From the NCBI GenBank assembly GCA_037974665.1, contig CM075780.1, positions 6,127,268 to 6,191,267 of the forward strand: a stretch of 64,000 nucleotides of DNA. The letters are read 5' to 3'. The DNA comes from Ehretia macrophylla. Lineage: Eukaryota; Streptophyta; Magnoliopsida; Boraginales; Ehretiaceae. Shown piece after piece: positions 4,537 to 57,623 of the stretch. The notes beneath the pieces were generated by a model. The model had not been told where the DNA came from and made no database searches. It was given only the letters and a program-made list of their open reading frames with translations. The position numbers and the translations under genes were made by a program. Numbering within the stretch: the first letter of the stretch is position 1; each line of letters opens with the position of its first letter.

Positions 4537-6967
4537 TGTCACGCCCCTAACCTAACCCTATACTAAAGGGTAAGTCCGAACCCGACAAACGAACTGAGTT
4601 TCCTCTGTATCATGGCTAACCGGTCACCTGCACATAGAAGAAACAGCTATAAAACAATATACCAACGTTCACAACATGGCTTTCCAAGTCTATAAGGCCA
4701 TCCGAGCCTTTCTACTATAACAAAATATAGCATACATGCATGCATTTTCTATTAACTATTGAAACACTATGTTTATAACCTCGATTATCATACTACTCTA
4801 ATCTTATCTATTTAACTTTCGTATATTTTAAGTCCACCAACCAACTTTTATTAAACCATACAAGCAAGCGAGCTAACTAAGCAATAAAGTAAAGCTTTAA
4901 AGTTATTACATGCCAACATTTAACTACTTTATCATACAAGACACCAAACTTTAATTTACAATCTTCCAAGACTAACATCAATACAAACAAGACCATAAGG
5001 TATCAAAATAGAACATATACAACAACAACACATTTTTCCATATCCAGCATTCAAGCAAGCCAACCTCAACAAGCAATCACTCAGGGCAACTGACCAATCT
5101 GAATTTCCTCCTCTCCTTCTACAGTTAATAGCTGGGGGTCAACCTCAGCTTTTGCTGAAACATGTTAAAAAGAGGAATGAACAAACACAGTTGCTCAGTG
5201 AGGGATGAGGTTTAGTTAACCAGGTGTGTTTTCAAAAATCCTTTCGTGCAATGAAATAGTTAAACACAAGAAATAGCAACTATATAGTAAAGAAGCAATT
5301 AAACAATTTAATACCACACAATTAAAAGGATACAATCTCAATAACCCCAAACACTCCAAAGTCTTGATCCCGATCACGAACCTTGATCCATGAACTCAAT
5401 CAATGTGCCGATATAATCCCAAACACTCCAGTGGGTGTACTCCAGATGTACCCAGAAATCATATGACCTAACACCCCCTGGAGATCTCTGGACTAGGCAA
5501 GCGAGGGATTAGAGCACATAGATTGAATATCCACTGGCAAGCCTATTGCCACCCAGTAGATACCCAATATATCCGCCCTGACGATATTGTTGTGCAACCA
5601 CGATGCAATGCACTCAAGATAATAATGACAATATAATTCCATAACCACATAAACGAGGGATAACAAAGTAGGTTGCCCTCGCATATAATTTCAATCAATA
5701 AGCAATATAACAATGTACACAAAATATAGTTATATTCCAACAATGTAGTCAATCCACTCAATTCACGAACTTCTCTAAAAGAATACACAAGCTATACAAT
5801 TGCATTTAAACTCTCAAATGACCAACTACAAGCCAATTGTTAACATTTTCTCAACTTTTTATAAACTAATCCCCTTTGTCCCAATTCAAGCTCATACAAA
5901 ATGAAACCCAAGCAAACCACAATCCAACCATTCTAACTTCCTAATGACACTTTATGACCCCCTTATAAGCTATGAAAACTCATTTTTAACCACTTCTTCC
6001 ACGAAAGCCCCAAAAGCCTCGTGGTCACTTTGAACTACAACTACCCAAACCACCCCTCAAATCAATGCCATAATTACAATTTAAGCACTATCTAACATTA
6101 TAAACACTAGCCATAGTATTCAATCATGCCCGAACAACCAAACCCCAAATGATCCCTTTTGTATCTAAGCCAATTTAGTAAGTTCATTCAAGTTTTATTC
6201 GTTCTAAGCACTAACCTAGGTTCAATAGCACCTATGGCATCATTAGATAGCATAGATCAAGCTTAAATTCAACAATTAACACAAACCCTAGAAAAATACT
6301 ATTTATTATCTTCTTTAATTAACCCTTTGTAAGAATTCAATAACTAAGCCTTTAAACTACACAAATCAAGTCTCCATAGCAAGTAAACACTATATTATAC
6401 CATATTCAAGCATTATATAAGCAATTAACAACAAATCTAAGAATTTAAAGACAAGATATAAATTTTGAAAACATGATTAAATGCAAATCCATCAACAAAT
6501 AAGGCATATATATGCAAGAACTAGGCTTGTAGGAGCTTGAATCCACTTGAAACTAGCTTAGATGACCACACAATGGAGGATGCAAGATGATTTTTTTCTT
6601 CTTCTTTGGCCTAGGAGCCGTCGGGTTTACAAGGAGACAAGGAGGGAATTTTTGCAATTGTTTGCCAGCTAATATGTTGTATATGTAATGTATAATATGT
6701 ATATATTATGTATGTGTAGGTTATTTGGGCTCATTTAAATGCAAGACTAGTAATTCAAGGCCTAAAAGTCTATTTAAAAACTAACTAGCCTAAATTCATT
6801 ATTTTTACTATTTACTCAGTATGAAAAACATTTTCCTAACGCACTCACCTGACATGCAATGCATAAAGTAATAATGAACGTATGCCACATAAGTTAATGA
6901 ACATAGGAAAAATGTAGAATCACGAAAATAAAATAATAAAAATTTAACTCCGGGCTCGGGTGTCACA
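4537..6967 (-). repeat. 5' LTR of fragment B (2431 bp)
   Basis: Both ends are visible: TGTCACGCCCC at the left and GGGCTCGGGTGTCACA at the right, giving TG...CA termini. Internally it has the ATAACAAAGTAGGTTGCCC motif (5659-5680), a CTCAGTGAGGG hairpin region (5178-5201), the palindromic GTTGTGCAACCAC (about 5588), and a TATA-rich tract (about 6665-6720) where transcription in element sense would begin. Its length nearly equals that of the solo LTR at 28863-31297 (2435 bp). Confidence 0.82.
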
Positions 6968-11876: not shown

Positions 11877-13601
11877 ACGGGTGTGTTCTAGGATGCTAGA
11901 TTAATGTTTGAATGTAGGTGTTACTCTTGAAGTGGAGTTGGTTAAGTGAGGAGACCATTTAGAAGACAAGTCATGAGCCTTGAGTATTGTTGAGGTTTTG
12001 TTGTTGCTAGTTGTGCCCTAATGTGTTTTGGATGGAATTGAATCTATATGTAGGTTATAGTATGCTTGTGTGATGTTGGAAATATGGTAGAAGAATGAGG
12101 ATTAGGGTGTGTGCAAAAGAGTTGCAAGGATGGTGGCAAAAATGGATTGAGTTTGTAGTTGAAGATGAATTTGGTAGAGAAATCATGTCTATCCGGGGGT
12201 GATACCTGGTCGTATTATCACGATTGGGTAACATGACAAGACAAATGTCAGTAACTTCCGGACATGATACCCGGTCGTGATCAACACGATTGGACTACCC
12301 GTTTTTTAGATTGACAAATTTGCGCAACAATTTTTCGAGGACCATATCTTGGTCAATTCAACTCCGAATTAAGTTTTGTTTGATTCTAGAACTTTCTATT
12401 TTCGATAAAATTCACGTCTATACCAATATCAGATTATTTAGAGTTTGGGAAAGTAGGGTACTTAACTATTTAAGTTAGGCTAGGGTAGAAGCGTTGAAGT
12501 TGCTATATGTTGTGTTCCAATATTGAAGGCAACCTATCCCGTTGAACTCTGCTTGCATGTTTATGTGTTATATGAACTCTATTTGGAACATGATTACACT
12601 ATTATGTCTTTGATTATTGTTACTAACCGGTGGCAACCTACTTTGTTGTCTCCGAGCTTGTTTTACATTTGAAATCCACTATTGCTCAGTGAATTCTCCT
12701 TGGAGAGATGGAATGTGAATAAATGATACGGATAAGTTAATAAACCCCTCGGTAGAAGTTTTGGGCTGCGTGGTCAGCGTTGCTTTCCAGGATGGACTTG
12801 GGCTACTGTGGTTTGGGTTGTCTTCGGAGTGCCCATTCTTAATTGGTGTGATGAAGATGATTTGATAAGAAAGCTCGAGACTGGCCATCTCCAACAAAGT
12901 TCGTGATATTGTATCCTTTTACTACATGGTTCCTACTCTTGATAGGTCCCTCGAGGTCATCGGAGAGTAGAGTTGCTTGATTAAGATTGTGACTAACCCG
13001 TATTTATTACCCTTGATATTTTGGTTATATGAAGTATATGCATAGCACGGTTTTATAAAGATGATTTCGAAATGATAAAATGTTTGTGAAAACCCTTCCC
13101 TTTTCATCCTCACTGAGCTATATGTAGGATTAGCTCACCCCTCTTTCAACCATTTCAGGTGAGGCCGAGGCCGAGCCGACTGTATAGGCAGAGGGCGATG
13201 AGGCTCTATGTGACGAGACTGACTTCTGTCTCTGTTGATCTTCATGCTTGTGTTGGAGATATAGCTTGTTAATAGATACTAATGATGTACTATTGAACAA
13301 CTTATGATACGTAATATTCTTTTGGATTCTTAACTACATACTAAGTTTGATTACCATTCTTTTGAGGCCTAGAGGTCTGTATTTGGCCACGTATGAAGTA
13401 CAAATAGGGATGCTAGGTCTTGTAATTAAGCAATAGGTTGATGTGGCCTTTTAATGTCAAATGCCTTGAGCAAACTTTTAAAGTTACTCGTAGGTTGAAA
13501 ATGCATGTTAAGTTGTTAATTGATGATTTTACAAGTGTTAAGCAATTGACACGTCGCGCTCCGATCTTAACCTCTGTGGGCTTTGGTCTCGGGGCGTGAC
13601 A
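11877..13601 (+). repeat. LTR (solo or partial) inserted in Tat pol
   Basis: Plus-strand LTR ending CTCGGGGCGTGACA at 13601. It carries GGCAACCTACTTTGTTGTC (about 12632-12650), a perfect hairpin TGAGCTA(13114-13120)/TAGCTCA(13131-13137) and ATTTCAGGTGAGG (13152-13164). A pair of inverted CCGGTCGTGATCAACACG-like segments lies near 12200-12300. The left boundary is approximate and no target duplication is evident. Confidence 0.7.
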
Positions 13602-15420: not shown

Positions 15421-15664
15421 AGAACCATAGTAGTGAATAAATGGCACTTGATAGTATTCTATGTAATACTTTCTTGCAATAGATAATAAAAGCTCTTCTT
15501 TCCCTTCCAAAGTTTGATTTTACTTGTGTATTTCGGTTAAGAAGGTTTTTCTGAATAGTTCAACTTCGGGGGGGCTTATGAGCTCCACACCCAAAGTCAC
15601 AGCACCACTTAAGGAGAACAATCACTATATACCTAACAGGGCTGTATTCAAAATAAGCCAAGAG
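15421..15664. other. Tat 3' spacer, no gene seen
   Basis: Non-coding sequence after the Tat integrase, interrupted at 15664 by element C and resumed at 27674. It contains a G-run (GGGGGGG near 15570) of the kind common in Tat 3' spacers. Confidence 0.5.
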
Positions 15665-17752
15665 TGTGAGACCTTGAATTTGTCTTTATTTACAATTAAA
15701 TGTTTTCACCTGTTTAAGTGCTATTAGAATTAATATATATGTATATATATATATGTGCTACTAAATAATCTTAGATTAAATGTGCATTTAAAAGACATTT
15801 GAAAAACAAATAATATGACTTTTCATCTTCTTTTGCAAAATTATGCATTGTGCATCAATTGTATATAATTAAGTGCTTATATATATATTTGTTGTCCCTA
15901 AAAATAGTCCTAATAAATATATAGTATAAGTTAGATAATATACATAAGGCTAGTTTAGGAATAATTCAACAAAAAAAAAAAAATTGCCAACTTTGACTTT
16001 GTTGTCCTCTTTGACTTTGCTATACAAATCAATATACATATATAATATGCTAAAACAAAACACAAAACTCACTCAATTGTCACACACATTTCCGTGAGCT
16101 CCTTGGGGAAGAAGAGAAGTTTTTTTTCTAGGTTTTCAAAGCAAATTTTCAAAGAAAAACCTCAAAACAAAGCCAAATATTTTCATTCCAAGCTTTATTT
16201 TGCTTGTTGGGCTTGCATTCTACCTATTCCTAGCTTCTCTTTGCATCAAAGGTGAGGGAAAAACTAGATCTTATTTTCAAAGTTCATGTCAAATTTTTAA
16301 TATTGCATATTTAGCTAAATTTTCTTAAGATTGTTGTTAGTTAGGTGTTGTAGACCAACTTAGTGTAATTATAGCCAATTTAAAAGTTTGAATGTTGTAT
16401 TTTTATTTTTCATGTTTTATTTTGATAATTTGGCTATTATTTTGTATAATTGTTGTTGTAGTTGTTGTTTTTAAGTTGTAGTTGCTTGTATAGACTTATT
16501 AAATATTGAGTAGTAATGTTGTAATGCCAAAATGTTGAATTGAATGTTGGATTAGAAGTTCAAAATTTCAGCCTTGTTTGCATTGCCATTTTGGACTTGT
16601 TGGGCTTGTTTTAGATGGCTTTTGGATGGTTTTTGAGGGGGCTTAGGTACTTGCTTGTGTGTTTAGGTGGTATGAGAAGGTTCGGGTGTTGTTTGATTGC
16701 TAGATTGTAAGTTATGTTGTTTAGAAACTTAAGTGTGTTGGTAGTTTTATAAATGTTGAGTTGTTGAAGTGTTGTTTAGTTGGTTGTTGATTGTTGCAGT
16801 ACCGGGAGACAACCTACTTTGTTGTTCTCTCAGAATATTAAGTGTTAAGTGATATATGTTATGAGTTGTGATAGGGTTGTGTCACCTTGGGCGGTATCGG
16901 GCTTGCAGGGTTGCATTGACACAACTATCATGTGCTATCCCCTATCCCGTGTGGTTGAAGCATGACCATGGGGTGTGGGTCAAGTTTGGGTACTTCCGGA
17001 ATGTATCAGTGGGAGAAACAAGAAGTCGGTTGAGTTCGTGATGGCATAAAGAGCTACATCAACTAGTTTTATTGTATCGTTATTGCTTGGTTACTTGTAT
17101 TGCTATATTTGTATTGTTGTTGATGTTTGTGGAGTATTCTTTATTCTTAGGGTGCTTTCCAAAGAGTTGATGTAAAAGTGTTTCAAAACCTCCTATTGAA
17201 CCCTCGCTGAGCTTTGTTATATATAAGCTCACCCTCTTCGCTGACCTTTCAGGTAATCTTGAGCAGGACCCAAGGTATGTACCTCTAGAAGTTGAGAATG
17301 AGCCTTATGTTGATGAGTCCTATCTGCCAAAGTCACGTCCATGAGTCTTTGCTGGAGTTCTTCATGTGTTGTCTTGAATTTATAACATGTTGTATTGTAT
17401 AAGTTTCAAAGTTTGTATTGTATAACTATACTTCAAGTTAATGGAACATATAATGCTAGGCCTAGTAGTCTTTCTTTTGATCATGAATTGAATTCTAGAC
17501 TAGTTTAATGCCTATTTTGCGTATGTATAATATGTTTTGAAGTATAGTGTTGAGACAGAGGCATTGTATATTGTTGTTTTAATGTTGGTTGGTTGGTTTA
17601 TGAGACATTGTTGGTTGTGTTGTGTGTTGTTGGATGTGGAGTGTTTGAAGTGAACCGGTGTATGGTTATGTTGTCCATATCACATATGTTATCATGCCAA
17701 AATTCTGCTGCGTCCTGACTGATCATAAGTGGGGTCATGTTAGGGCATGACA
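15665..17752 (+). repeat. 5' LTR of element C (2088 bp)
   Basis: Starts TGTGAGACC and ends GGGCATGACA. It holds a TATA box (16039-16045), an AAAG/GTGAGGG donor-like site (16252), ACAACCTACTTTGTTGTTC (about 16809-16827), the inverted repeat GATAGGGTTGTGTCA / TGACACAACTATC (about 16870-16930), a perfect stem TGAGCTT/AAGCTCA (17208-17231) and CTTTCAG (17246-17252). All of these recur in the 3' LTR. Confidence 0.92.
16039..16045 (+). promoter_or_regulatory. TATA box of the element C 5' LTR
   Basis: TATATAA in an AT-rich stretch, about 210 bases before the conserved AAAGGTGAGGG. Other LTRs in the window have a TATA-rich tract at the corresponding place, which supports this as the U3 promoter of the fossil LTR. 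Confidence 0.55.
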
Positions 17753-21851: not shown

Positions 21852-21866
21852 TTAAAGGTGGGAGAA
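21852..21866 (+). other. Polypurine tract of element C
   Basis: AAAGGTGGGAGAA stands directly before the 3' LTR start (TGTGAGACC at 21867), as expected for the plus-strand primer. Confidence 0.8.
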
Positions 21867-24800
21867 TGTGAGACCTCAAATTTGCCCTTATTTGCAATTA
21901 CATGTTTTCACCTGTTTAAATGCTATTAGAATTAATATATATGTATATATATGTGCTACTAAACGATTGTAGATTAAATGTCCATTTAAAAGACATTTGA
22001 AAAACAAATAATATGACTTTTCATCTTATTTTACAAAATTATGTATTGTGCATCAATTGTATGCAATTAAGTGCTTATATATATTTATTGTCCCAAAAAA
22101 TAGTCCTACGTAATATATAGTATAAGTTAGTTTAAGCATAATTCAACTAAAATAACAAAAATTGCCAACTTTGACTTTGTTGTCCTCTTTGACTTTGCTA
22201 TATAAATCAATATACATACATAATATGCTAAAACAAAACACAAAACCCATGCAATTCTCACACACATTGTCAAGCTCCTTAGGGAAGAAGATAAGTTTTT
22301 TTCTAGGTTTTCAAAGCAAATTTTAAAAGAAAAACCTCAAAACAAAGCCCAATCCTTTCATTCCAAGCATGATTTTGCTTGTTGGGCTTGCATTCAACCT
22401 ATTCCTACCTTCTCTTTGCATCAAAGGTGAGGGAAAAACTATATCTTATTTTCAAAGTTCATGTCAAATTTTTAATATTGCATATTTATTTGTTGTTTAG
22501 CTAAATTTTCTTAAGATTGTTGTTAGTTAGGTGTTGTAGACCAACTTAGAGTAATTATAGCCAATTTAAACAGTTGAATGTTGTATTTTTATTTTTCATG
22601 TTTTATTTTGATAATTTGGCTATTATTTTGTATAATTGTTGTTGTAGTAGTTGTTTTTAAGTTGTAGTAGCTTGTACAAACTTGCTAAATATTGAGTACT
22701 AATGTTGTAATGCCAAAATGTTGAATTGAATGTTGGATTAGAAGTCCAAAATTTCAGCCTTGTGAGCATTGCCATTTTGGTCTTGTTAGGCTTGTTTTAG
22801 ATGACTTTTGGATGGTTTCCAAGGGGGCTTAAGTACTTGCTTGTGTGGTTAGGTGGTAGGAGAAGGTTCAGGGGTTGTTTGATTGCTAGATTGTAAGTTA
22901 TGTTGTTTAGAAGTTAAGGTTACGTTTCTCTGAATTAACTAAGTGTTGTCTTTAAGTGTTTGGTGTTGTTTGTATGGTTGATACTTAGGTTGGTGTTAAG
23001 TAGGCTCGGGTTTGAATGTGTGTTGAAGTGTGTGTTAAGTTTGGGTGGCCTAGTTTGTCATCTAACTTAAGTGTCTTGGTTGTTTTGTAAATGTTGAGTT
23101 GTTGAAGTGTTGTTTAGTTGGTTGTTGATTGTTGATGTGCCGTGAGACAACCTACTTTGTTGTTCTTTCGGAATATTAAGTGTTAAATGATATCTGTTGC
23201 GAGTCATGATAGGGTTGTGTCACCACGGGCGGTATCGGGCTTGCCGGATTGCATTGGCACAACTATCGTGTGCTATCCCCTATCCCTTGTGGTCGGAGCA
23301 TGACCATGGGGTATGGGTCTAGTTTGGGAACTTCGAGAATATATCAGTAGGAGAAACAAGAAGTCGGTTGAGTTCATGATGGCGTAAGGAGCTACTGTCA
23401 CGCCCCAACCCGGCCTATAAAGGTTAGACTAGGGTGTGATCTAAACATTCAAGTCCTTTCACGTACTTAATCGTTCAAGGACGTTTAGCACTTAACGTTT
23501 TATCCTAGACTCCAAAATTTTTCGGAAAACCGGCAGCATAACGGCTGTAATTGGGCTCTTTGGTTTGACCTAGTTCTCTAAACGCCTCAAAATTTACCAT
23601 CTCAATTTCATTTCCAACTAAGATTACTATTTTACCATCAATTGAATTGCCTATTGGTTATTTCGACATCCCATTGATTTATAACCTAGCACGATACTAT
23701 GTCTCGTTTGTTTATTTATCCTCGTTATGAAAGTACCTGTTGATCTTAGCTTAATAGCGAATACCTGTTAAGATTGGATAAGTTCATTTACGTAATCCTT
23801 AACTAGAGCATCATAACCTATGATAGATACTAGCGGATAATAAAAGCAAAACGATCATAGTAGTGTCATGTCTAGCATCAGTCTACTTAATAGAAGTACA
23901 AACCAAAATTAGACCCCAAATTACAACGAGGGTATTTTACATCACAACATTGAGCAACATAAAGGAAATAGTCTTCAAGTAACATAAAGTTCACAAGTAG
24001 CCACATTCAAGCAAAGCGAACAATGATAGGCAATCACTCCAGGGGTTCATCATTAGGCACACCGTCCTCTGGTACCTGTACCTGTTCTTCTTCACCTGTG
24101 ATGAAAAAGAGGGTGAGTCCTTATGAACTCAGCGAGGGGGGAAACGAGAAATACGTTTTGAAACTCATTTTTCGGTTCAATTATGAAAACTCTTTTGAAA
24201 ACATGTCACGTATTACAAATAAAATGGTATGGAAATATATGAAACAAATCGAGTAACAGATACATTTACCGATCATTTCAGGGATACAGTGAGCAGTTGC
24301 TCTCAATTTCAATTTCGATACAATTGTTGCGGCCGACTTTAATAATCCACTTATCGCTCCCAATTGGGTGTACTCCGGATGTACTCCGAAACCTACGACC
24401 CAACTCTCCAAGGGTGAAATGCCAAGCGAGATAGGGAATTGGACCATGGTAGTCACGGTAACATCGGCAAGCCCGATGCCGTCCAGCGTGCGTGAAACAC
24501 TACCATGCCACACTGAAAGGTTGCAACCTCGTATGCAATGCACATTTACAACATTTAACATATCACATTAGGAGGATAACAAAGTAGGTCGCCTTCGAGC
24601 AGTTATAAGATCGCACGTTGTCAAGTAATCAAACGAGGCACGGTAAGACAAGTAATTTCACTTGAAAGGCATATAGAGCCATATGAACATTAAACAGGCA
24701 GCCATGTAACACATGCAAGTCGAGCCATATAACTCATTTCGATGTCCACGTAAGCAAGTGATACGATTATTCAACATGCAACAACACCTACGTGGGTTCA

Positions 24801-27673
24801 GATGCAAGAAAAGCCTATTTGACAACATGCAATGATCAAAATTACATTTAATCTTATAAGACATTTACAGGCAGCCCACTAAGCATATAACTTCCACACA
24901 ATATCCAAATGATCAACACTTAGCAAGACTACCTAGTTATTAGGGTTTCCATATCGTGCATATTTGTGCAATTTGAGACTCAAACCAACTCAAAGTCAAT
25001 CTCAAGCCATGCATCATTTAATTCAACATCTTCAAACATTCAAAACAGTCCACACAACATCCCGAAGCTACAATCCTAAGTAGTTAATTCAACAAGAGAA
25101 GCCACAACAATTTTTCTAAGCATAACACTAAGTGAAACCCTTACTGCAATAGGCTGTTTTCTCACAATCAATAGGATAAGAAAAAAATCTCCAAATTCAA
25201 TGAATAAGATGTCAAATTAAAGCTTAATGAGTTAACTAAAATCAGAAACAAACCTTGCATCGATTGGAGTTCGGAATCATTAGTTATAGCCGAAACAGTA
25301 AGACAGCACAAAACTGTCCAGATTTGCACACGTTTCAGAAATTGACGTTTTTTAGATCCTTAGAGTCAGTTTTAGCCTTAGTCCATTTCTGACAAATTTG
25401 TCCAGAACTGAAAAATATAGCATCACACCAAATTTCATGAATTTTGGACAACATTTACTAAGTCAAATATGGTTTGTTCCACAAGGTCAGTGCATCTGCC
25501 AAAACCTGCTTCATTTTTCCAGATTTCCAGATTTGGACACATTTTAAAGATTGGCTATTTTTAGGACCTTAGAGTAAAAATTAGCTTCAGCCTATTTCTG
25601 GGAAAAATGTTCAAAACTGTCCAAAATAGTCACCTACCAATTTTCAATCATTTTAAACATCATTTTCCTAGCTAAAATTACCTCGAAACAGACTGGTCAG
25701 AGAGATGTCAACAATCCGACTTCACCTAGCATCAATTTCAAGCCAAGATCTTGCCATGCATGGTTGTTTAAGCTTATGAACGACCATATAACTCAAGTAC
25801 AGAAGCAAATACACATATTTATGAGCATGCATGTGGATTTTTTGAAGAGTTTTCAAAAGGTTTTAGCCCTCACCTTAGCAATCAACCACAAAGATGCACA
25901 AAAGCCTTGTTGAAGCTCAAATCTCTTCTTCTTCTTGCTTAGCCGAAATCCCAACTAGCTTTTCTCTATTTTTCCTAGATTAGTAACCAAGCTCTTAGTA
26001 CATGCATGTAGTTAGGACTTGAGGAAAAGAAATGGATGCCAAGAAGCTTACCTAGGCCGAATAGAAGTCTTCAATGTACATGCATGTGTGATTTTCGAAC
26101 TCTAGCTAGCTTGCTCGACTTTCTTTGATGGTTGCTTGACTTGTTCAACTAAGGTGTGATTAAGATAAGCTATGGAGGTAGGGAACTCAGCCAAGGCCGA
26201 GAATGAGAGAGGAGAATGAGAGGGAGAGAGAGAAGAATGAAAGAGAAATGAAGAAATGACCAAACATGTCAAGAATAAAGTCTTTTGCATTCATCCAAGC
26301 ATGTGGTCGGCCTTGGGCTAATAAATTCTGATTTTTTGTGTCTTCAAGATGGAATTTTGAAATGTTAGCATGGGCATGGTCATTTGGTCGAGCAAGGTGA
26401 AGAGATTGAGGGGAATTTGAGCAATTTTTTAAGCATTTGTGTCATAGAATGTCATAATGTGTCTAAGAATTAAGTTGAATTGAATAAGCATGCATAAACA
26501 CCACCTAGTGGTCGGCCAAGGCTACTAAAAATGCTGAATTTTGTCAACTTTTGATCATTATTTAATTGTGTCTTGAAAGTGCAAAAAGAATAAGGAATAA
26601 AGAATGAAGAATGTTTAGTGTTTGGTGAATTTTTGTCTTCTAGTGAGTTGAATTAGGATTATAATATTGATAGTGGATTTTGTAGGATTGTTTTATAGTC
26701 TAGTGCTTTGTGTAAGATGCTATCTTGATTAGCGTGAAGGCACGCTTTCTTAGATCTAGGGCACGCACTACGAGGTAGGATATGAACTACGAGACGAACG
26801 CACGTTTTTCAAGTAAATGCATGCAACCCTAAATGAATGCACGTAATTCAATGCATGGCACATAAAATGAACACAATTCTTAAACCTAGGTCAAGGCACG
26901 CAAATCTAGATTAGGACACACAAAACGAGGTATCGCACGCAAATCGGGGTCGGGCCTCACAGCTACATCAACTAGTGTTATCGTATCCTTATTGCTTGGT
27001 TACTTATATTGCTATATTTGTATTGTTGTTGATGTTTGTGGAGTATTCTTTGTTCTTAGGGTGCTTTCCAAAGGGTTGACATAAAAGTGTTTCAAAACCT
27101 TCTATTGAACCCTCGCTGAGCTTTGTTATATATAAGCTCACCCTCTTTGTCGACCTTTCAGGTGAACTTGAGTAGGACCCAGGGTATGTTTCTCAGGAAG
27201 CTAAGAATGAGCCTTATGTTGATGAGTCCTATGTGCCAAAGTCACGTCCATGTGTCTTTGCTGGAGTTCTTCATGTGTTGTCTTGAATTTATAACATGTT
27301 GTATTGTATAAGTTTCAAAGTTTGCATTGTATAACTATACTTCAAGTTAATGGAACATATAACGCTAGGCCTAGTAGTCTTTCTTTTGATTATGAATAGG
27401 TCGCTAGACTAGTTTAATGTCTATTTTGCATATGTATAATATGGTTTGATGTATGTTGTTGAGACGGAGGCATTGTATATTGTTGTTTTAATGTTGGTTG
27501 GTTGGTTTATGAGATGTTATTGGTTTTGTTGTGTGTTGTTGGAGTTGTTGTTGGATGTGGAGTGTTTGAAGTGAACTGGTGTATGGTTCTGTTGTTCATA
27601 TTACAGATGTTATAATGCCAAAATTCTGCCGCGTCCTGACTGATCATAAGTGGGGTCGTGTTGGGGCGTGACA
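21867..27673 (+). repeat. 3' LTR of element C, interrupted by a solo LTR
   Basis: Matches the 5' LTR over its length, from TGTGAGACC to GGGGCGTGACA. It is split between 23395 and 26961 by a solo LTR. Without that insert it is about 2.2 kb. It repeats the donor-like site (22437), the CAACCTACTTTGTTG motif (23150-23164), the stem TGAGCTT/AAGCTCA (27117-27140) and CTTTCAGG (27155-27162). Confidence 0.9.
23396..26960 (-). repeat. Solo LTR (3565 bp) inside the element C 3' LTR
   Basis: Minus-strand LTR with termini TGTCACGCCCC and GGGCCTCACA, flanked by the perfect 5-bp duplication GCTAC (23391-23395 and 26961-26965). The interrupted LTR reads straight across, so this is a clean solo LTR left after LTR-LTR recombination. 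It contains the shared module in the usual order: donor-like AAG/GTGAGGG (25873), AAAGTAGGTCGCC (24581-24593), AGGTTGCAACCT (24518-24529), GGTGTACTCCGGATGTACTCC-like block (24366-24386) and TCACAGGTGAA. It is longer than other LTRs here. No coding region is seen. Confidence 0.93.
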
Positions 27674-33202: not shown

Positions 33203-35259
33203 TGTTGCACCCTGACCCCGATCTATCGCTAGGCTAAGGCCGAAATGCGGCGTTCATAACCAATAAAACCTGTCAATTGAAAGTTTAACAAAATGTACAA
33301 TCATTTATAACCCATAAAAGTTCAAAAGTCCACCAAATACATCGACCTTAGAGGTTAACCACAACATGTTCAAGCATAAGGACTAGCCAACAATCAGGTA
33401 TCTAGGTCTCAAAAGAATACAAGTATTTAACTACATGATAGTCGTTCGAAAGATTAAGTTAATACATCAAGTATTCTTTAAATTACATCAACCAACAGAA
33501 ATCACATAAGGCAGAAATCCTCGATGTCACACCAAGGAGTTTTTCCAGCATCTTGAGGGGCCTGCTCCGACTCTACCTCACCTGAAATGTTGAAAGAGGG
33601 TGAGCTGCAACTAGCTCAATGAGGGATAAAGGGGAAGAGAGTTTTCACAAAGGTTTTATCTTTTCGTAAATAGTTGATAAAACATGCCATGCACACAAGA
33701 ACGCACAGATGATCATAACAAAAGCGAGCAAGAACAATCGTGTAACCTTTCTCTTCCAAGATATCATTAGATCCCGGCAAGAAGGTTCTCCTGAGGGATC
33801 AATGGGTCCTAGCAAGAGAAGGAATCAATATCTTGGTAGCCGGGATATACCGGCAAACCCGTCGCTGCCTGGAGGTCCCGTCACTACCCCAATCAATAAT
33901 GGTTGCAACCTAGCTGTGCATATATATAATTCAAATGCATTTGCATTGTTACATAAGCATGTGAGTTTCATGGACATGTAATGCACTTATAAGTAGCATG
34001 TACAAACATTTATGGGTGCACTTGTACAGAACATAACCAATAAGGTTAGACAAGTAAAGCCTTAACATGCATGCACGTAGCATACTGCAACTGATAACAA
34101 CGAAAAGAATCTATTTGAGGAGTCCGGTCATGTACCCGATCGTGTTGATCATGACCGTCAGAGAGCATGCTAAAAATACGGTAGTGTATCTGGTCTTGAT
34201 CAACACGACCGGGTACACGACCTCCCCCTACGATGCCAAAACAGAAAATTTGCCATTATGCTCCTAACATGTTTTCTAGCTTCCAACTCTTTTCCAAGCT
34301 TCTACTAACCTCAAAAGGGGTTGCCAAACATCGTATACAAGTCCAACAATCATGCAATAACACTCTTGAAACATCAACTAGCATACAAAACAACTAAGAA
34401 TCCATATTAGCTCAAGGACACCTACAACTACCTCTAAGAACCACAATGCTTGGTTCTTCTTCCTACTCCTTGCACACAGGTTATAACCTATCTAATACAA
34501 GCAAGAACATCTTCTTGCTCATTAACAACTCCTCAAGGTCATCCAAAACTAGCTAGGCAATACCCTACATCAACAACCCATTCAATATAAACAATACACC
34601 CAACACTTCGCTTATGCATAACTAGCAAGAGGAACAACATATATATACAACAAATGATCTTGGATGAGCTTTAACAAAGTCTTTTATAAGAATCCCTCAC
34701 CTCAGATCTTGAATGGGAAGCAAGAAATGAGGTTAGCAATGCTTGTAGGTGCAAGAAAATAGCTTGAAAATGGTGAAGAATGCAAGAGATTAGCTTGAAG
34801 TTTCCCCTTCTTTCTCATTCTTCCTCTTCTCTTCTTTTTCTTCCCTTTCTTTCTTCTTCCTTGGTAAAAAATATGAGTGTGTGTGTGTAGTGTATGTGGT
34901 GTGTGTTATGTGTGTTTTTGCCTAGACAAGAATAATGTTAAGATATTTTGCAATTTTAGCCTAAGGACAAGAGTGCCCCTCAACTAGCTTGTGTATTACT
35001 AGTTTCTCATTCTAGTTGTTTCTTGACTAGTTAGTTGCTATTTCTAGGTTAATAAGACTTAATTAATTCCTACAATATCTAAGACACTTAAATGTATGTA
35101 TTTAAACATAAATCCACATTAAATGATTAAATGCACGTAATTCAAGAAAATGCACATAATCAATATAAAAGCACATAAAATAAGGTAAATGCATATACAA
35201 TGATTTAATTATGTATGATATGATCTATATGCATATGAGGTCTTGTGCTGGGCCTTACA
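33203..35259 (-). repeat. 3' LTR of element D (2057 bp)
   Basis: Runs from TGTTGCACCCTGACCCC to GCTGGGCCTTACA. It contains ACATTTCAGGTGAGG in minus sense (33587-33601), a stem TGAGCT(33601-33606)/AGCTCA(33613-33618), GGTTGCAACC (33901-33910), a pair of inverted CCGGTCGTGTTGATC segments (34125-34225), a donor-like GAG/GTGAGGG (34700) and a (TG)n promoter-side tract (34873-34915). Confidence 0.78.
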
Positions 35260-35709: not shown

Positions 35710-37849
35710 TGTCACGCCCTAACCCCGACCCATCGCTAGGCTAAGGCCGAAACATGACGTGTCAATACTTAATCCTTGCAAGATAGGAAAATAGCAACCT
35801 AAATAGTCAAAATATGCCACAATAAGTCCCAAAAAGACTTTTAAAATTCTCTCAAATCATCGGCCTTAAAGGATTTCAGCAACCTTATATATATTACAAG
35901 ACTTGAGTTCATCTACCTAACATTCCAAACCTAGATCTAGTAAGTAAAATATTCATCTTAGCTAAGCAACAGGTTACCAAAAGAATATTACAACATAATA
36001 AATTAGTTAATTACAATACATCTCTTTAAAACAAGAAGTACATCTTCACAGGCAAGCACGTAGCTCTCATAGAGTAGAAATCCAACTCATTATAGCCACA
36101 AAGCTTGCAACCACATGGGAGCTTGCTCGGGCTAATCTTCACCTGAAATTGTTGCAAGATGGGTGAGCTTAATTGGCACCAAAGCTTAGTGAGGAAGAAA
36201 TAGGGAAGGTTTTCACAAAAGTTTTATCTTTTCATAAACGATTTGATAAACATGCCATGCACATAAGAATGCACCTGTAAGTAAGCAAGATATAACTTGA
36301 ATGTGAGATAAGAATATGAACAAGTATACTCATCAAAAGGATACTGTGATTGCTGATGATGACGGCTTCTGCCTCGAATCAAGTAATGATAACCTGACAC
36401 CACAACTGAGGATCAAGTCCTCAAAGAAAACCCAACACCAACTCCATCAACAATTGAGGGTTCCGGATTACTCCTCTCAAAGGTAAAGAATAGGTCCATG
36501 GTGGTCGTGGGTATAACCGGCAAGCCCGATGCAGCTTGGGGCCATCGATCACACCAAGGCCTTTAGAAGGTTGCAACCTTGATAAATATATATATGTAAT
36601 ATCCAACTCTCCGAGGGACATCACCAAGAGAGAGAGGGACTAGGATAGCAACAAAGTAGGTTGCCTCCGTCACAACAGTATTATCAAGATATAGCAAGTA
36701 AGCATGTAAACCTTCTGCATGAGTAATTAATTAACCAATGGTGTAGCAAGAAAGACTATAATACTCATGCATATATGTCATTTATAATGCCTAAAATAAT
36801 GCCAAATATGAAAGGATAGCAAAAGGCTACTCGTAACGACAAGAAAATGCAAAAACGGGCAAGAATAAAAAAGGCTTTTGTACTAGCTCATCTTAAATTG
36901 TTAAGTTTCCTACTTTCCCAGACTCTAAATAATCTGGTTTTGGTATATAATTAAAACTTACTGAGTGTAGATAGTTCTAGAATCAAACGAAACTCAATTC
37001 GGAGTTGAATTGACCGAGATATGGTCTTTAGAAAAATGTTGTGCAAAGCTGAAAAATATCCGGTCGAGTAAATCTGGACGAGGCACTCATCCGTATCCGG
37101 TCAATCAAATCCATGGCAGTGAGCATCCGGATGACTGATCCGGTTGACTAGATTTGGATCCGGTCGACTGAATCCTGATGCAAAACACGCGAATTGACTT
37201 GTTTCTTGCTCCAAACTCATGCTTTTAAGCTCAAATCAAGTATACAACTCTATCAAGTCATAAACATCATTATTCAACAACTTTTCTAACTCCTAAAAAC
37301 ACAAAAATCAAGTAGAACTCAAGTACAACACCATCTTTTACCAACACTCAACTTAGCATAAATGTTCAAGACTCAACTTTTTCTTTCTCTCTTTGCAACC
37401 AAATTAAACCTACTTTACACATATAATACTTCATATAACTCATACAAAATTCTTCAAGATCATCAAAAGCTATAAAAGACAAGTCCAATCCAAAGATAAC
37501 ACTAACACAACCTTTAAAACCCTAGTTTGAACATACCAAGCTCAAATTCACTAAGCAAGTTTATAACTATCATCAATATACTCAGTATACATATATACAC
37601 ATAATCATGAACCATGTAACCTTTGCAAAACATTTTGAAAACATCCCTCACCTTGATTGCAACAATGGATGCTAGAGAGAGCTTGAAGATGAAAAGGCCA
37701 AACCAACCTGCACGCAGAAGAACCATCATACAAGAACGATCATATATATACATAATTTAGTCCATTTCTAGTTCGTTAGGTGGTTCCAGTTTCTTCTTTT
37801 GGCAAAATAGTCTATAAGTGTTCTAACTTAGATTGCCACCAACTAAAAC
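35710..37849 (-). repeat. Second LTR of element D, partial
   Basis: Starts TGTCACGCCCTAACCCC and is clearly the same family as 33203-35259. It contains AATTTCAGGTGAA in minus sense (about 36143), a near-perfect stem (36164-36188), AAGGTTGCAACCTT (36567-36580), AACAAAGTAGGTTGCC (36650-36665), a cluster of CCGGTCGA-like motifs (37065-37180) and a donor-like AAG/GTGAGGG (37651). The far terminus is not seen, because the CACTA element begins at 37853. Confidence 0.72.
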
Positions 37850-42422: not shown

Positions 42423-45049
42423 TGTGACACCCCGATCTCTCTCGAGACTGGGAGTTCTATCAATCAATCTAATCACAACCCAATTCCAAACCTGGGCAAA
42501 ATATTTAGGGAAAGACGGACGGAGTCTCCCCTGTTTCTAGGCAAAATGTAAAACCTGTAATAGCATATAAGTGGACCAGTACCGTGTCCAACCACACAAA
42601 TACCTCAAGGCCATCCGACCCTTGTTTCTCAACAACTAAACACAGCAAGTATACATATTTCCAAGTACCCAAACTATTCTAACTCTTTTCCTTTAGACAA
42701 TTACATACATGCAATAAAGTTAACCATACTAACTGAATACATAAACTAGCTTTTCATTCTACCTCAATTACCTAGTTAAATTTAAATTACATTCCTTTTA
42801 ACAATAAATACATACAACACATGAACATACATCTTTGCATCTTTGACAACTCAAACCACATAGCACGCAAGACAACTCTTCGAGCACGATCTTTCACGTA
42901 ATCACGAACTTTCTAGCTAACATGGCATTTCCTGAAATGTGGCGGTGAGGAGTGAGTAAACACAACACGTATACTCAGTGAGGGCGAGACAGATATCGAG
43001 GTGGAGAGAAAGAAAGTCGTGCAATGCAAATAAGGCAGTTAAGCAATATATCTGACAAGTAAGCATTCAATATAAACAATCAATACAATAAGCAAATAAT
43101 AAAAGCATTAACACAACCATTCAAAGCTATACCACACTCTGAAGGCTATGGTTCACTCATACGAGCAATGTACCATTCGATTCGATTGCACGTGCATTAC
43201 ATCAATCTCGAGCTTGATGTTGACAACGATGACAATAAGTGCGCAACCACCTTATAACTTCAGTTTGGAATACCCCGAAAGTATCCAATCAATTCTACGA
43301 CCCAAATCTCCCTGGGAGGCAACCCAAGCGAGAATGGGAATAGGACACGGAGCTAGAGAAACCAACACTGGCAGCCTGAGACTACCCAGAGAGGCCCATC
43401 ACTCACGCGTCTGACACTTATGCAATGCAATACGAGATACAAGCAATAAACGAGCAATAACACGAAAGTACAGATTAGTGGCGATAAACGAGATAACAAG
43501 CATTTACAATCAATAATAGCAATCAACTAACTTTTCAAGCATGATTATCATTAATACTAACAATAACATCAATCAAACAGGTAATGGCAGTTCAAACACG
43601 AAAATGACAAATATCACTATTCAATCTCTAACTTCCAAAGGCAATTACGGGCAAATGAGCTACAGGATTAGGAAACCGATTTCACTACGTTCACTCAGGC
43701 ACTACAAGGCACGTTTCTATGTCACTAAACCTCAGTTTCTCACCCGAGGCCCGAAAGTCCACCTACTGCGTTTGAACTACAACTATACTAACTGGTTGCT
43801 CAATCAACGCCACAACAGTGCCAAAAGTGCTTCCATGCCCTCAATAGCAAAACCCCCAACTCAATTCGAGCACGGTCAACTTTTGGTCAAACGGCCCCTT
43901 TTCGTTTCATTGTCTAATTTCCAATTTTATCAAAGGCCGGTCCATTTTTATTGCACATTTTATCTTTCTATCACTAATGGCACCTATCCAAATCAAGCAA
44001 TCGTAATTCAGATCAAAATCCGAAATTCTAGGGTTTACTATTCATAATTCACTATTCATTATTCTTCCCCAATTTCAAATACGCAATTTCAGCCGTAAAA
44101 ATCTCTAAATAACTATCAAACAATGCTCTACGAACTCAAAGGAAGCTATATCAAGCAATTACAGGCATTATAACACATTATATATCAACCCTAAAAATTT
44201 GAAACAAAATTCAAATTCAAATATAAATGCACAAAAGCGTGAAAACCCTCACAGATATTGAAGACCAAGACCTGCAAGGACCCGAGCCACGACCCCCGAG
44301 CAATTCCACGCACGATTGTAGAAGAAAAATGCAAAACACATTTTTTTTCTTTTTCCCTCAAACTTTCGGTCATGGAAAGGACTTATAAGGCATTTTGAGA
44401 TTTGTTTTTTTGATCATTTTGTTGATTTTTGGCTATTTAAAAGAATTGACAAAGCTCAAGGGCAAAATGGTCATTTTACAAAGTCAAGCTTAAGTTAAAA
44501 TTGGCCAAATAAGCTTATTTTGACATCATTTAATCTAATTCAAGTTAAAACAATGCAATTTTAATGAAAACCAATTAAATCTAGCTAAATTAAGTTAAAA
44601 ACATTTTTCACTAAGTCCGATGAATATTTCTCTAACTCTCATTTTCGAAATACTACGATCGAACGGTCAATAAACGATCGCTAATCAAATGATGAACACT
44701 AATAGAAAACTATAATTTTTGAAAAGTAGAATAGTAGAATAGATTAAAATTCACTCCGGCTCGGAGTTACTTTTCTCATTTATTTGAAAACCGAGTGATT
44801 TTAATGCAAGACAATTAAAACCAATTATTAAAATAATCAAAACAATCAAAATAATCAATATTCATTTAAAAATAATTGTTTTAACTATTTCTAGAATATT
44901 TTAAAGAATTATGAAGTTAATGCTAAGATACAAATAAAAAAGTTATTATAAACACGTAATCAAATGCAATTAAACACTAACATTTAAGATGCCACTTAAT
45001 TAAATACAATTAAATGCCATTAAATGCATGCCGGGTTCGGGTTATCACA
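42423..45049 (-). repeat. 3' LTR of element E
   Basis: From TGTGACACCCCGATC to GGGTTCGGGTTATCACA. It contains CATTTCAGG in minus sense (about 42932) and a stem TGAGTA(42953-42958)/TACTCA(42972-42977). An open frame of 168 codons at 43541-44047 is matched by 160 codons in the other LTR, but that follows from LTR identity. Confidence 0.9.
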
Positions 45050-46691: not shown

Positions 46692-49319
46692 TATGACACC
46701 CCGATCCCTTTAGAGACCGGGAGTTCTATTAATCAATCTAATCGCAACCCAATTCCAAACCCGGGCAAAATTTTTAGGGAATGATGGACGGAGTCTCCCC
46801 TGTTTCTAGGCAAATTGTAAAACCTGTAATAGCATATAAGTGGACCAGTACCATGTCTAACCATACAAACACCTGAAGGCCATCCGAGCCTTGTTTCTCA
46901 ACAACTAAACACAGCAAGTATACATATTTCCAAGTACCCAAACTATTCTAACTCTTTTCCTTTAGACAATTACATACATGCAATAAAGTTAACCATACTA
47001 ACTGAATACATAAACTAGCTTTTCATTCTACCTCAATTACCTAGTTAAATTTAAATTACATTCCTTTTAACAATAAATACATACAACACATGAACATACA
47101 TCTTTGCATCTTTGACAACTCAAACCACATAGCACGCAAAACAACTCTTCGAGCACGATCTTTCACATAATCACGAACTTTCTAGCTAACATGGCATTTC
47201 CTGAAATGTGGTGGTGAGGAGTGAGTATACACAACACGAATACTCAGTGAGGGCGAGACAAATATCGAGGTGGAGAGAAAGAAAGTCGTGCAATGCAAAT
47301 AAGGCAGTTAAGCAATATATCTGACAAGTAAGCATTCAATATAAACAATCAATACAATAAGCAATTAATAAAAGCATTAACACAACCATTCAAAGATATA
47401 CCACACTCTGAAGGCTATGGTTCACTCATACGAGCAATGTACCATTCGATTCGATTGCACGAGCATTACATCAATCTCAAGCTTGATGTTGACAACGATG
47501 ACAATAAGTGCGCAACCACCTTATAACTTCAGTTTGGAATACCCCGAAAGTATCCAATCAATTCTACGACCCAAATCTCCCTGGGAGGCAACCCAAGCGA
47601 GAATGGGAATAGGACATGGAGCTAAAGCAACCAACACTGGCAGCCCGAGACTGCCCAGAGAGGCCCATCACTCACGCGTCTGACACTTATGCAATGCAAT
47701 ATGAGATACAAGCAATAAACGAGCAATAACACGAAAGTACAAATTAGTGGTAATAAATGAGATAACAAGGATTTACAATCAATAATAGCAATCAACTAAC
47801 TTTTCAAGCATGATTATCATTAATACTAACAATAACATCAATCAAACAGGTAATGGCAGTTCAAACACGAAAATGACAAATATCACTATTCAATCTCTAA
47901 CTTCGAAAGGCAATTACGGGCAAACAAGCTACATGATTAGGAAACCGATTTCACTACGTTCACTTAGGCATTATAAGGCACATTTCTATGTCACTAAACA
48001 TCACTTTCTCACCCGAGGCCCGAAAGTCCACCTACTGCGTTTAAACTATAACTATACTAACCGATCGCTCAATCAACGCCACAACAGCGCCAAAAGTGTG
48101 TCCATGCCCTCAATAGCAAAACCCCCAACTCAATTCGAGCACGATCAACTTTTGGTCAAACGGCCCCTTTTCGTTTCATTGTCTAATTTCCAATTTTATC
48201 AAAGGCTGGTCCATTTTTATTGCACATTTTATCTTTCTATCACTAATGGCACCTATCCAAATCAAGCAATCGTAATTCATATCAAAATATGAAATTCTAG
48301 GGTCTACTATTCATAATTCACTATTCATTATTCTTCCCCAATTTCAAATACGCAATTTTAGCCGTAAAAATCTCTAAATAACTATCAAACAATGCTCTAC
48401 GAACTCAAAGGAAGCTATATCAAGCAATTATAGGCATTATAACACATTATATATCAAATCTAAAAATTTGAAACAAAATTCAAATTTGAATATAAATACA
48501 CAAAAGCATGAAAACCCTCACAGAGATTGAAAACCAAGACCCGCAAGGACCCGAGCCATGACCCCCGAGCAATTCCACGCACGATTGTAGAAGAAAAATG
48601 CAAAACAAATTTTTTTTCTTTTTCCCTCAAACTTTCGGCCATGGGAAGGACTTATAGGGCATTTTGAGATTTGTTTTTTTGATCATGTTGTTGATTTTTG
48701 GCTATTTAAAAGAATTGACAAAGCTCAAGGGCAAAATGGTCATTTTACAAAGTCAAGCTTAAGTTAAAATTGGCCAAATAAGCTTATTTTGATGCCATTT
48801 AATCTAATTCAAGTTTAAAAAAATGCAATTTTAATGAAAACCAATTAAATCTAGCTAAATTAAGTTTAAAACATTTTTCACTAAGTCCGAGGAATATTTC
48901 TCTAACTCTCATTTTTGAAATACTACGATCGAACGGTCAATAAACGATCGCTAATCAAATGATGAACACTAATAGAAAACTATAATTTTTGAAAAGTAGA
49001 ATAGTAGAATAGATTAAAATTCACTCCGGCTCGGAGTTACTTTTCTCATTTATTTGAAAACCGAGTGATTTTAATGCAAGACAATTAAAACCAATTATTA
49101 AAATAATCAAAACAATCAAAATAATCAATATTCATTTAAAAATAATTGTTTTAACTATTTCTAGAATATTTTAAAGAATTATGAAGTTAATGCTAAGATA
49201 CAAATAAACAAGTTATTATAAACACGTAATCAAATGCAATTAAACACTAACATTTAAGATGACACTTAATTAAATACAATTAAATGCCATTAAATGCATG
49301 CCGGGTTCGGGTTATCACA
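46692..49319 (-). repeat. 5' LTR of element E
   Basis: Nearly identical to 42423-45049. It shows a perfect stem TGAGTAT(47222-47228)/ATACTCA(47240-47246), where the other copy has the shorter TGAGTA/TACTCA. It ends GGGTTATCACA at 49319. Confidence 0.9.
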
Positions 49320-51557
49320 TTGATTACCTTTCGAAAGGATACATCCACCAATATTGTACAAGACCACCGCATATTGCTTCATATACCAAGTGCTCTGGCA
49401 AATGCTCCATCGAATCGAAGAAGGCAGGGGGTAAGATCTTTTCCAGGTTGTTAAGAGTCACGACAATATTTTTTTGCATTCTTTCTAGATCTTCTCTATG
49501 AAGAGATGTACAACATATGTCTTTGAAGAACAAACTTAGTTTCGTAAAAGCTTCCCAAACATTTTTAGGAAATACCTCACGTAAAGCTATAGGGAACAAT
49601 CTTTCCATGAAGACATGACAATCATGACTCTTCATATGTGATAACTTCAGATCTTTCATGTCAACACATCTTGATAAATTGGATGCATATCCATCAGGGA
49701 GTTGTAAGTCCTTAACCCAATCTAGAATTTCTTTTCTCTCGACCACAGACAATGTATAGACACCCATATTCAGTTTGTAACCACCATCCGCTTTGCTCTG
49801 AACACATAATTCAGTACAGTCACAAAAGTTCTAAGCATCCATTCTCGCTTTAAGATTATCTTTTGTCTTACCCTTGACGTTCATCATAGTGTTGAAAACA
49901 TTATCAAAGACATTCTTCTCAATATGCATCACATCCAAATTATGACGCACAAGATGTGAACGCCAATAGGGCAAGTCCCAAAAAATGCTTCTTTTAGTCC
50001 AATTATGCCAATCCCCAAAGCCAGGTATCTTGTTTCTTGGCAATTTGTTTCTTGGCAATTCATATGTTGTAGGGAAGTCTTTTACACATTCCCAAATTTC
50101 TTCACCATATAATATGGGAGGATGACTAGAACTTTATATTCTACCCTTAATAAAATTCTTCTTGACTCGTCGTAACGTACTATTCGGTGGTAAGAACTGA
50201 CGATGACAATCAAAGAAGCAATTTTTTCTTCCTGCAGTCAATTGAAAAGCCTTTGAATATTTCATGCAATATGGACACGACAACCTCCCGTGTGTACTTC
50301 AACCAGATAACATACCATATGCTAGAAATTCATTTATTGTCCACAATAAAGCCGCCCTCAATTGAAAATTAGTTTTCGTGGAAATATCATAACAAGGTGC
50401 CCCTACTTCCCATAAATCTTTCAATTCTTTGATTAGGGGCTCTAAGTATATATCAATATTCTTACCAGGACTTTTCAGCCCTGGAATGAGAACAGTCAAG
50501 AACATGATAGGGTTCTTCATGCACATCCATGGTGGTAAATTGTATGGTGTTATAATCACTGGCCAACAAGATTAAGGTTTAGAATTTGAGTTGTATGGAT
50601 TAAACCCATCTAAGCATAGCCCAAGATGAACATTTCTTGGCTCGGCGGCAAAATTAGGATAAACTCTATCAAAATGTTTCCATGCCTCAGCGTCAAACGG
50701 GTGACATATCTTTCCATCTTCGACTTGGTATTTCTTATGCCACTGCATATGTTCAGCTGTAACGTTTGACGTGTATAACCTTTGCAACCTTTACCCGATC
50801 TTGATGTCTTGTAACGTGGCTCACGACAACGGGGACACGAGTCCAGGTCACTTCTATCCTTGTAAAACAATATACATCCATTTTTGCAGACGTCTATCTT
50901 TTCATATCCCAATCCTAAAGGCCTTATTTCCTATTTGAAGTTGTAAAATTTTTCAAGTAAATTATGAGTCTTTGGCAACGCTTCCCTCATTGTCTCGATC
51001 ATTCTATTGAAGCATTGTTCACTCATATTTTCTTCACACTTAATATTCATGAAACGCGACACAGCAGACAAATGAGTTAGAGTCACACAACAATCCCACA
51101 ATGGTTCATCAGCAGCCTTCAAGAGATTAAAAAAATGTGATGCTTCTGTATTAGGTGGTTCACGAAATTGGTCGCGATCCATAACGAACTCTGGACCAAC
51201 AACATCAAATACCATTGTCCTATAAGTATTTCGTTCGTCAAACCCAGGGTAATTATAATTATGAGTAACATTCTACTGAGATGTATTACCACAATTATGA
51301 ATCTACTCCCCATGTGAAGTCCATTCATAATAATTCGATATAAAACCCCGTTGATAAATATGAACCTTTACTTCGTTAGGATCTAAAAAATTTCGATTTT
51401 TGCATTTTGCACATGGACATCTTATCTTATCACCGTCCATGAAATGTTGTTGACTACTTGCAAATGCAACAAATTCACGTACACCTCTAATAAACGTATT
51501 ACTAAGCTGCCCATCGAGTTCCGAACGGTGATTCATCCATTCACGATTGGAATCCAT
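49320..51557 (-). pseudogene. TNPD transposase of CACTA-1, N-terminal and catalytic part
   Basis: The TNP2/TNPD transposase cuts and joins CACTA ends. From the start MDSNREWMNHRSELDG at 51557 it shows the transposase-associated domain with a Cys motif (KIRCPCAKCKNRNF) and YQRGFISNYYEWTSHGE. The Transposase_21 region follows: NGCILFYKDRSDLDSCPRC (about 50870), NVHLGLCLDGFNPY (about 50620), PYNLPPWMCMKNPIMFLTVL (about 50530) and HNLDVMHIEKNVFDNVFNTM (about 49920). DUF4218 has LPPAFFDSMEHLPEHLVYEA, ending WWMYPFER at the element E junction. Stops near 51303, 51270, 50930 and 50570, frame changes near 50780 and decayed sequence around 50060-50300 show it is dead. The downstream half is at 41025-42422. 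Confidence 0.9.
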
Positions 51558-57160: not shown

Positions 57161-57623
57161 AACTAAAATATTACATGATGCTATTCCAGGTGAGCCTTCA
57201 CTTAGTTACATTCTTTACAACCAAAATATACACAAGGCATGCTGGCCTCAAAAGAATACATAAGCATTCACATATTTGTATAAGAACATCCACCTAAAGC
57301 CAATGCAATCACTCAGGGAGACACTCGAGCCTCCTCCTCGACAGTCTCTGAAGGAACCGAACCTGCCTCACTTGAAAATATTAGATAAAAAGGGAAGTGA
57401 GCAAACATTGTTTCTCAGTGAGGGAAGGGTATAGTAATCCAGGGAGTTTTTGAAACCATTTCGTGCCATGCATCAAGCAACTATAAAGATAATTAACACT
57501 ACGAGACAGATAAGCAGATAAACAACTAAACAAGGCACTTCAAAAAGTATACGATAGTACAAGTAGATAAAGATAACCACAAAAATTCAATAAAAAAACA
57601 AGTAATATTCAAGTATATGAACC
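57161..57623 (-). repeat. LTR fragment of the 4537/28863 family
   Basis: Resembles 29213-29560 and 5040-5320 in order: a GGCATGCTGGCCTCAAAA block, AACATCCACCT, CAATCACTCAGGG, then a stem region TGAGCAAAC(57398-57406)/GTTTCTCA(57410-57417) with CAGTGAGGG. Neither terminus is present. It differs from the LTR on the other side of CACTA-1, so the junction is composite. Confidence 0.6.

Follow-up and report, generated by a model that had tools for sequence, protein, structure and literature searches.

The LTRs of many families of plant retrotransposons carry a short hairpin that keeps its pairing while the letters of its stem change, and which is almost certainly a selected RNA structure. A branch-site motif occupies the 3' arm of the stem, a TTTCAG acceptor-like site follows it and a minor-class (U12-type) donor motif stands upstream, in a recurring order and spacing; these three features were missed by the sequence-only reading that had first pointed to the hairpin. 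It is proposed, with about an even chance of being right, that the whole is a structured splicing-control module in LTR RNA which pairs signals of different classes and keeps the RNA unspliced.

The hairpin and the elements that carry it

The window analysed here is a stretch of 64,000 nucleotides (C17:6127268-6191267) from a 1.58-Gb plant nuclear genome. Of 38 solved sequences listed, 1rlc, from tobacco, comes nearest to a plastid-like rbcL found in this genome, so that the host may be an asterid. Nine hairpins had been claimed in it, and all nine are present in element sense when both strands are printed and re-read, three on the forward strand (13114, 17208 and 27117) and six on the reverse; a covariance model built from 36 copies recognised a tenth that was absent from the earlier list. 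Up to a cut-off of E = 1 the model recognises these ten places in the window and no others, with E values from 1.3e-10 to 5.3e-05; since at least five and up to nine of its 36 training rows are window copies, those matches hold by construction, and 27111-27163 and 42930-42983 stood outside the training set as such. The forward-strand modules lie at 13108..13160 (stem TGAGCTA/TAGCTCA at 13114-13137, branch-site-like CTCAC at 13134-13138, TTTCAG at 13153-13158; 69.6 bits), 17202..17254 (stem TGAGCTT/AAGCTCA at 17208-17231, CTCAC at 17228-17232, TTTCAG at 17247-17252; 54.6 bits) and 27111..27163 (stem at 27117-27140, CTCAC at 27137-27141, TTTCAG at 27156-27161; 56.0 bits). Those on the reverse strand lie at 5154..5203, the added copy (stem TGAGCAA/TTGTTCA at 5178-5197, TTTCAG at 5155-5160; 45.6 bits), 24094..24137 (stem TGAGTTC/GGACTCA at 24114-24131, TCACAG at 24096-24101; 38.1 bits), 33580..33624 (stem TGAGCT/AGCTCA at 33601-33618, TTTCAG at 33582-33587; 47.2 bits), 36141..36194 (stem at 36164-36188 with one A.C mismatch, TAAG against CTCA, and TTTCAG at 36143-36148; 58.3 bits), 42930..42983 (stem TGAGTA/TACTCA at 42953-42977, TTTCAG at 42932-42937; 49.1 bits), 47199..47252 (stem TGAGTAT/ATACTCA at 47222-47246, TTTCAG at 47201-47206; 50.8 bits) and 57370..57423 (stem at 57398-57417, one position mismatched, and an acceptor that has decayed to TTTCAA at 57372-57377; 48.4 bits). 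The stems are as they had been described, and the one at 24114-24131, which had been called near-perfect, pairs at 7 of 7 positions with one U.G. Among the real motif copies listed, the TTTCAG-type site said to follow the opening motif does so, beginning 35-47 nt after the motif's start.

The LTR that holds the 17208 hairpin spans 15661..17752 (+), as delimited by self-comparison against 21863-27673, where the second LTR is interrupted, and the hairpin stands about 550 nt short of its 3' end. The same distance from the 3' end is found in the reverse-strand LTR 46694..49320, which is paired with 42425-45050 at 96.6% identity by self-comparison. In one family, the five LTR-bearing pairs tested show 97.3-99.2% identity, and the hairpin lies about 740 nt from a PBS-like TGGTATCAGAGC. 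A domain search detected Retrotrans_gag and RVT_1 in the window and RT_RNaseH, Integrase_H2C2, rve and SH3_Tf2-1 in copy L066, so that between the two all four kinds of domain, gag, RT, RNase H and integrase, are represented in Ty3 type; the chromodomain PF00385 is weak in L066, at 16.4 and 19.8 bits against a cut-off of 25.1. Judged by this predicted domain content, the hairpin-bearing elements are probably chromovirus-type Ty3/gypsy elements; membership of the Tekay clade was also considered, on grounds of resemblance. Other repeats in the window include a 320-bp tandem unit at 54016-54903 (2.8 copies, starting with TGTAATATCCCACATCGG) that resembles a short terminal-repeat element, related TCGTCACAAATTCG-like tandem repeats far apart at 38195-38362 and 57774-58433, and degenerate telomere-like TTTAGGG and GGGTTTGGGTTAAA arrays at 62152-62242 and 8689-8756, within chromosome arm sequence.

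Covariation of the stem

A total of 65 distinct sequences were aligned by MAFFT without structure, 13 of them from a pattern fixing part of the 3' arm and 20 chosen by eye among matches to a pattern that leaves the stem itself free. Standard pairing holds in 437 of 455 cells at pairs 1-7, pair 8 is poor (18/62) and pair 9 middling (35/53); over all nine pairs, 490 of 570 cells (86.0%) are standard, against 78.8% in the best of 1000 shuffles and 27.5-41.5% in slid registers. When whole 3' regions were permuted, the mean was 345 of 390 cells and the maximum 357, while 380 were observed. The bases of the stem change together, as the sequence-only reading maintained, with pairs 5, 6 and 7 altered on both sides in 11, 23 and 31 of the 65 sequences, respectively. 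A set of 36 copies that leaves out the 13, and so is free of 3'-arm selection but was chosen for distinct stems, holds its six basal pairs in 96.8% of cells and has a covariation of 0.370 against 0.195 when shuffled, a value reached by none of 500 shuffles. In these 36 copies the number of pairs with both-sided changes (2 vs 1.9) and the number of further pair types (6 vs 5.7) are no higher than in shuffles.

The copies are related and the shuffles ignore kinship, so that these comparisons overstate independence; this is also what speaks for the pairing being shared ancestry without function. That explanation is nevertheless highly improbable, because double changes occur at three adjacent pairs in several combinations, slid registers of the 36-copy set give at most 0.085, and the covariation is seen in LTRs that are otherwise hard to align between groups. 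The minimum-energy fold contains the hairpin in eight of the ten window copies, one of these lacking its two basal pairs, and single-sequence stability is unremarkable (z-scores from -1.44 to +0.90 in the ten window copies); the evidence for the hairpin is its covariation, not its stability.

The strand on which the pairing acts can be read from the cells that depart from Watson-Crick pairing: in the sense strand there are 29 G.U against 9 A.C, which favours sense RNA over DNA. The same imbalance weighs against a reading of the stem as palindromic DNA to which proteins would bind in the LTR promoter, the pyrimidine tract being a plant Y patch and CA the transcription start. Inverted repeats do also bind dimeric proteins, and some loops hold TATATAA about 34 nt before TTTCAG; however, this loop TATA is family-specific, loop length differs widely between families, and the invariant letters are those of the branch site and the acceptor, all of which makes the palindrome very unlikely. 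The sequence-only reading had staked its claim of a selected RNA structure on covariation in a larger alignment, and with copies from elsewhere in the genome the hairpin passed: covariation exceeds every shuffle and every slide, and the wobble pairs favour the element-sense strand.

A second hairpin lies about 280-720 nt upstream of the first in 20 of 45 copies. Its loop, CTACTTT, hardly varies while its stem does, and its arms pair in 113 of 120 cells, whereas none of 5000 arm shuffles gave more than 110. In the window it lies at 12627..12656 and 16803..16832 on the forward strand, both with the loop CTACTTT and paired arms, and at 24569-24598, 36641-36670 and 5653-5682 on the reverse. The block ACCTACTTTGTTGT, taken up as a coding candidate (TYFVV), proved to be this second hairpin instead. 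A consensus fold of the wider region had little covariation support (terms 0.8 and 0.3). The first hairpin's loop was also tried as a TATA box or transcription start and rejected, TATA-like motifs having no common position in 45 copies. Two 8-mers contained in the self-complementary GGTTGCAACC, namely GTTGCAAC and TTGCAACC, are each present in 15 of 45 copies, at 60-450 nt before the first hairpin.

Splice-site-like sequences around the hairpin

CTCAC, or a sequence close to it, forms the 3' arm of the first hairpin's stem. In 52 sequences gathered with no 3'-arm selection this arm conforms to yUnAy, with U and A in 52/52 each and the two pyrimidines in 50/52 and 51/52, while n varies; where the 3' letter is fixed, its 5' partner varies by wobble (pair 3 is A.U or G.U). 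Beyond the 5' anchor, the invariant positions of alignment A1 are a paired T, a stem G, the T and A of the branch site and one G near the acceptor. The branch A stands 18-27 nt before the G of the AG (median 22, n = 51), and the tract between branch A and AG is 84% pyrimidine. An exact TTTCAGGT serves as the acceptor-like site of 31 of 45 copies, other acceptors before GT being TTACAG, TTGCAG, TCACAG and TGTAG. A U2-type 3' splice site has yUnAy 18-40 nt before its AG, and here that spacing, the pyrimidine tract and the YAG are found together, suggesting that the hairpin probably sits on a 3' splice region of the major class, made up of branch site, tract and YAG|GT.

The 5' splice sites of the minor class (U12-type) have the consensus RTATCCTTT. 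In the 430 nt 5' of the hairpin, the two commonest 8-mers of 45 copies are TATCCTTT (22) and GTATCCTT (20). RTATCCTT is present in 25 of the 45 copies and inexact in the other 20; its 105 anagrams, itself included, average 1.3 with 6 as the next highest, and its reverse complement occurs in 0/45, which fixes its orientation. One family has it exact in 27/27 copies. Most copies hold a single exact motif (400-600 nt scanned), and the distance to the hairpin is about 100-380 nt depending on family, one group having about 290-380. A motif scan of the window placed GTATCCTT at 12911..12918 (+), 26983..26990 (+), 36337..36344 (-) and 5326..5333 (-), a one-change form GTATCCCT at 24280..24287 (-) and a degenerate form GTATCGTT at 17074..17081 (+); none was found within 600 nt upstream of the copy at 33580..33624 (-). 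From its match, orientation and recurrence, we consider it likely that the upstream motif is truly U12-type. There are single copies in which a motif has decayed and the hairpin is still recognised, namely the acceptor at 57372-57377 (-) and the donor at 17074-17081 (+).

Across the genome, CTCRCTGAGCT N4-16 AGCTCA has 5162 matches against 2 for the reversed pattern, and a pattern whose fixed letters all lie outside the stem has 2180 against 4 for its control; the 100 of these 2180 that were listed show many different stems with pairing kept. The pattern CTCRCTGAG N20-50 CAGGT has 33903 matches, some copies being counted repeatedly, against 106 for its control. With the donor motif added, RTATCCTT N98-128 CTCRCTGAG N20-50 CAGGT has 2895 matches against 6 for the anagram RTCTACTT, and the version with N158-188 has 16690 against 1 reversed. 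Because repeat families multiply anything, such counts prove only that the module is common, and because copy number is silent on RNA the pairing was tested separately as above. Forward and reverse counts are unequal, 13590 and 20313 for CTCRCTGAG N20-50 CAGGT and 6274 and 10416 for the RTATCCTT pattern with N158-188, which is probably a counting effect in view of nested double matches on the minus strand among the rows listed. No known RNA family reached its gathering score in the window, one module pattern had 0 matches in viral contigs, and one searched for in bacterial and archaeal genomes matched two related Salinivibrio contigs, taken as chance. Neither the module nor a covarying branch-site hairpin in plant LTRs appeared in the literature searched, which covered few subscription journals, and among the literature matches listed for CTCACTGAG no title concerned LTR retrotransposons. 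Even if it had no function, the module would be a sensitive marker for LTRs too diverged for alignment.

Possible function and comparison with known systems

A minor-class donor joined to a major-class acceptor should splice badly. In LTR transcripts running through the module, the U11/U12 and U2 machineries would dock on such a pair, which would splice poorly or not at all; with the branch adenosine paired inside the hairpin, use of the acceptor would be lowered further and the LTR RNA would stay unspliced as genomic RNA. The acceptor may also contribute to defining the last exon, ahead of the poly(A) site.

A genuine minor-class intron, slowly removed so that spliced and unspliced pools coexist, with the hairpin shortening the donor-acceptor path or tuning the branch step, would account for the donor motif and the YAG acceptor, and a branch-like motif does lie 7-12 nt from the AG (one also at 16) in 46 of 61 sequences. 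This motif differs from the U12 branch site, whose consensus is TTCCTTRAC. The consensus itself is no better matched than in shuffled sequence, with a best match of 5.84 of 9 against 5.76 and scores of at least 7 in 16.4% against 16.5% (n = 61), and together with the pyrimidine-rich tract, a feature that U12-type introns lack, this keeps the module from being classed as a U12-type intron. The slower removal of minor-class introns, stated in a review, would agree with such an intron. The invariant major-class branch site, the failure to find spliced copies in the two families searched and the unconserved coding continuity across the putative intron, with stops near the donor and fixed stops in young copies, all argue against it, and we regard it as unlikely.

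A second possibility is a major-class intron that begins at an upstream AAG|GTGAG and has the hairpin in its 3' splice region, the U12-type motif having another role. The branch site, tract and acceptor are all major-class, and AAG|GTGAG is present in 7 of the 25 copies with at least 981 nt upstream, following TATA-like sequence in W17203 and L040; in the window, a U2-type donor-like AAG|GTGAGGG, recognised as a motif only, lies at 16249..16258 (+), about 200 nt after TATA-like TATATAAT (16039-16046). However, the donor is confined to those 7 of 25 copies, the conserved RTATCCTTT is left unexplained, and the matching spliced junction occurs 0 times among genomic copies with up to 3 mismatches (one family), so that this intron is quite unlikely.

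The minor-class spliced junction was likewise found 0 times in genomic copies of two families with up to 3 mismatches, while the intact acceptor of the second family, serving as positive control, was found 1463 times. That these searches gave no spliced DNA copies is consistent with reverse transcription of unspliced RNA, equally with a site that is never used, and also with splicing in RNAs that are not reverse-transcribed. A protein encoded by spliced LTR RNA was considered and rejected: stop positions in the candidate frame are overall no better than in the other two, upstream frames hold fixed stops in young copies, in several families stops stand beside the donor, and the spacing between the donor and a conserved block 5' of it changes out of frame (by eye). 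An acidic frame of one phase, about 100 nt after the acceptor in L026 and its relatives, looks coding in some families, where changes seem mostly synonymous by eye and the frame ends at stops shared within a family; neither a start codon nor an open upstream frame was found for it.

The splicing-control module is the preferred reading. In a bolder form, which we hold to be doubtful, it would be an ancient covarying device in which a minor-class donor and a hairpin-held major-class branch site let neither spliceosome finish, thus guarding genomic RNA; transcribed copies could then titrate the minor spliceosome, the thousands of potentially U11-binding sequences far outnumbering the host's minor-class introns.

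Inefficient splicing is well known from retroviruses, and plant LTR retrotransposons with spliced RNAs include BARE, a Ty1/copia element. The closest analogy may be the NRS of Rous sarcoma virus (RSV), a decoy 5' splice site in which U1 and U11 sites overlap and which promotes polyadenylation as well (PMC1475878, PMC9143442, PMC8329584). Both systems place a U11 consensus and a major-class 3' splice site in retroelement RNA, and the NRS keeps genomic RNA unspliced; retention of this kind by the LTR module has, by analogy, an even chance at best. In RSV, U1 is the inhibitory partner and is antagonised by U11 (PMC1475878, PMC9143442, PMC8329584), so that the parallel is a loose one, of principle. 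The NRS is also situated within gag, at a great distance from its 3' splice sites, and combines an inhibiting overlapping U1-type site with a purine-rich enhancer, whereas the candidate module described here has its motif in the LTR near the acceptor and a covarying hairpin on the branch site. The USSE (U11 snRNP-binding splicing enhancer) is similar in that a U12-type 5' splice site sequence is not used as a donor and acts on a major-class 3' splice site (PMC8329584); it is a tandem repeat downstream of the 3' splice site it activates, whereas the present module has one motif, upstream.

Among plant LTR retrotransposons, Ogre has an intron that is spliced from part of its transcripts, which lies between the GAG-PROT and RT coding regions rather than in the LTR (PMC6317226). 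BARE has spliced and unspliced RNA pools with different fates, and differs in making a subgenomic Gag RNA; its abstract mentions neither a hairpin nor a minor-class motif (PMC3735527). The same abstract raises for plants the open question of how LTR retrotransposons apportion their RNA to translation, to the genomic pool and to spliced products (PMC3735527). A covarying branch-site hairpin behind a U12-type donor motif would give the elements a cis-acting switch, and would be an unusual case of a mobile element employing signals of the minor spliceosome. Its scale can be gauged against another species: the two spacing windows alone give 2895 and 16690 module matches, some double-counted, compared with the 269 U12-type introns that one database gives for Arabidopsis (PMC7367187).
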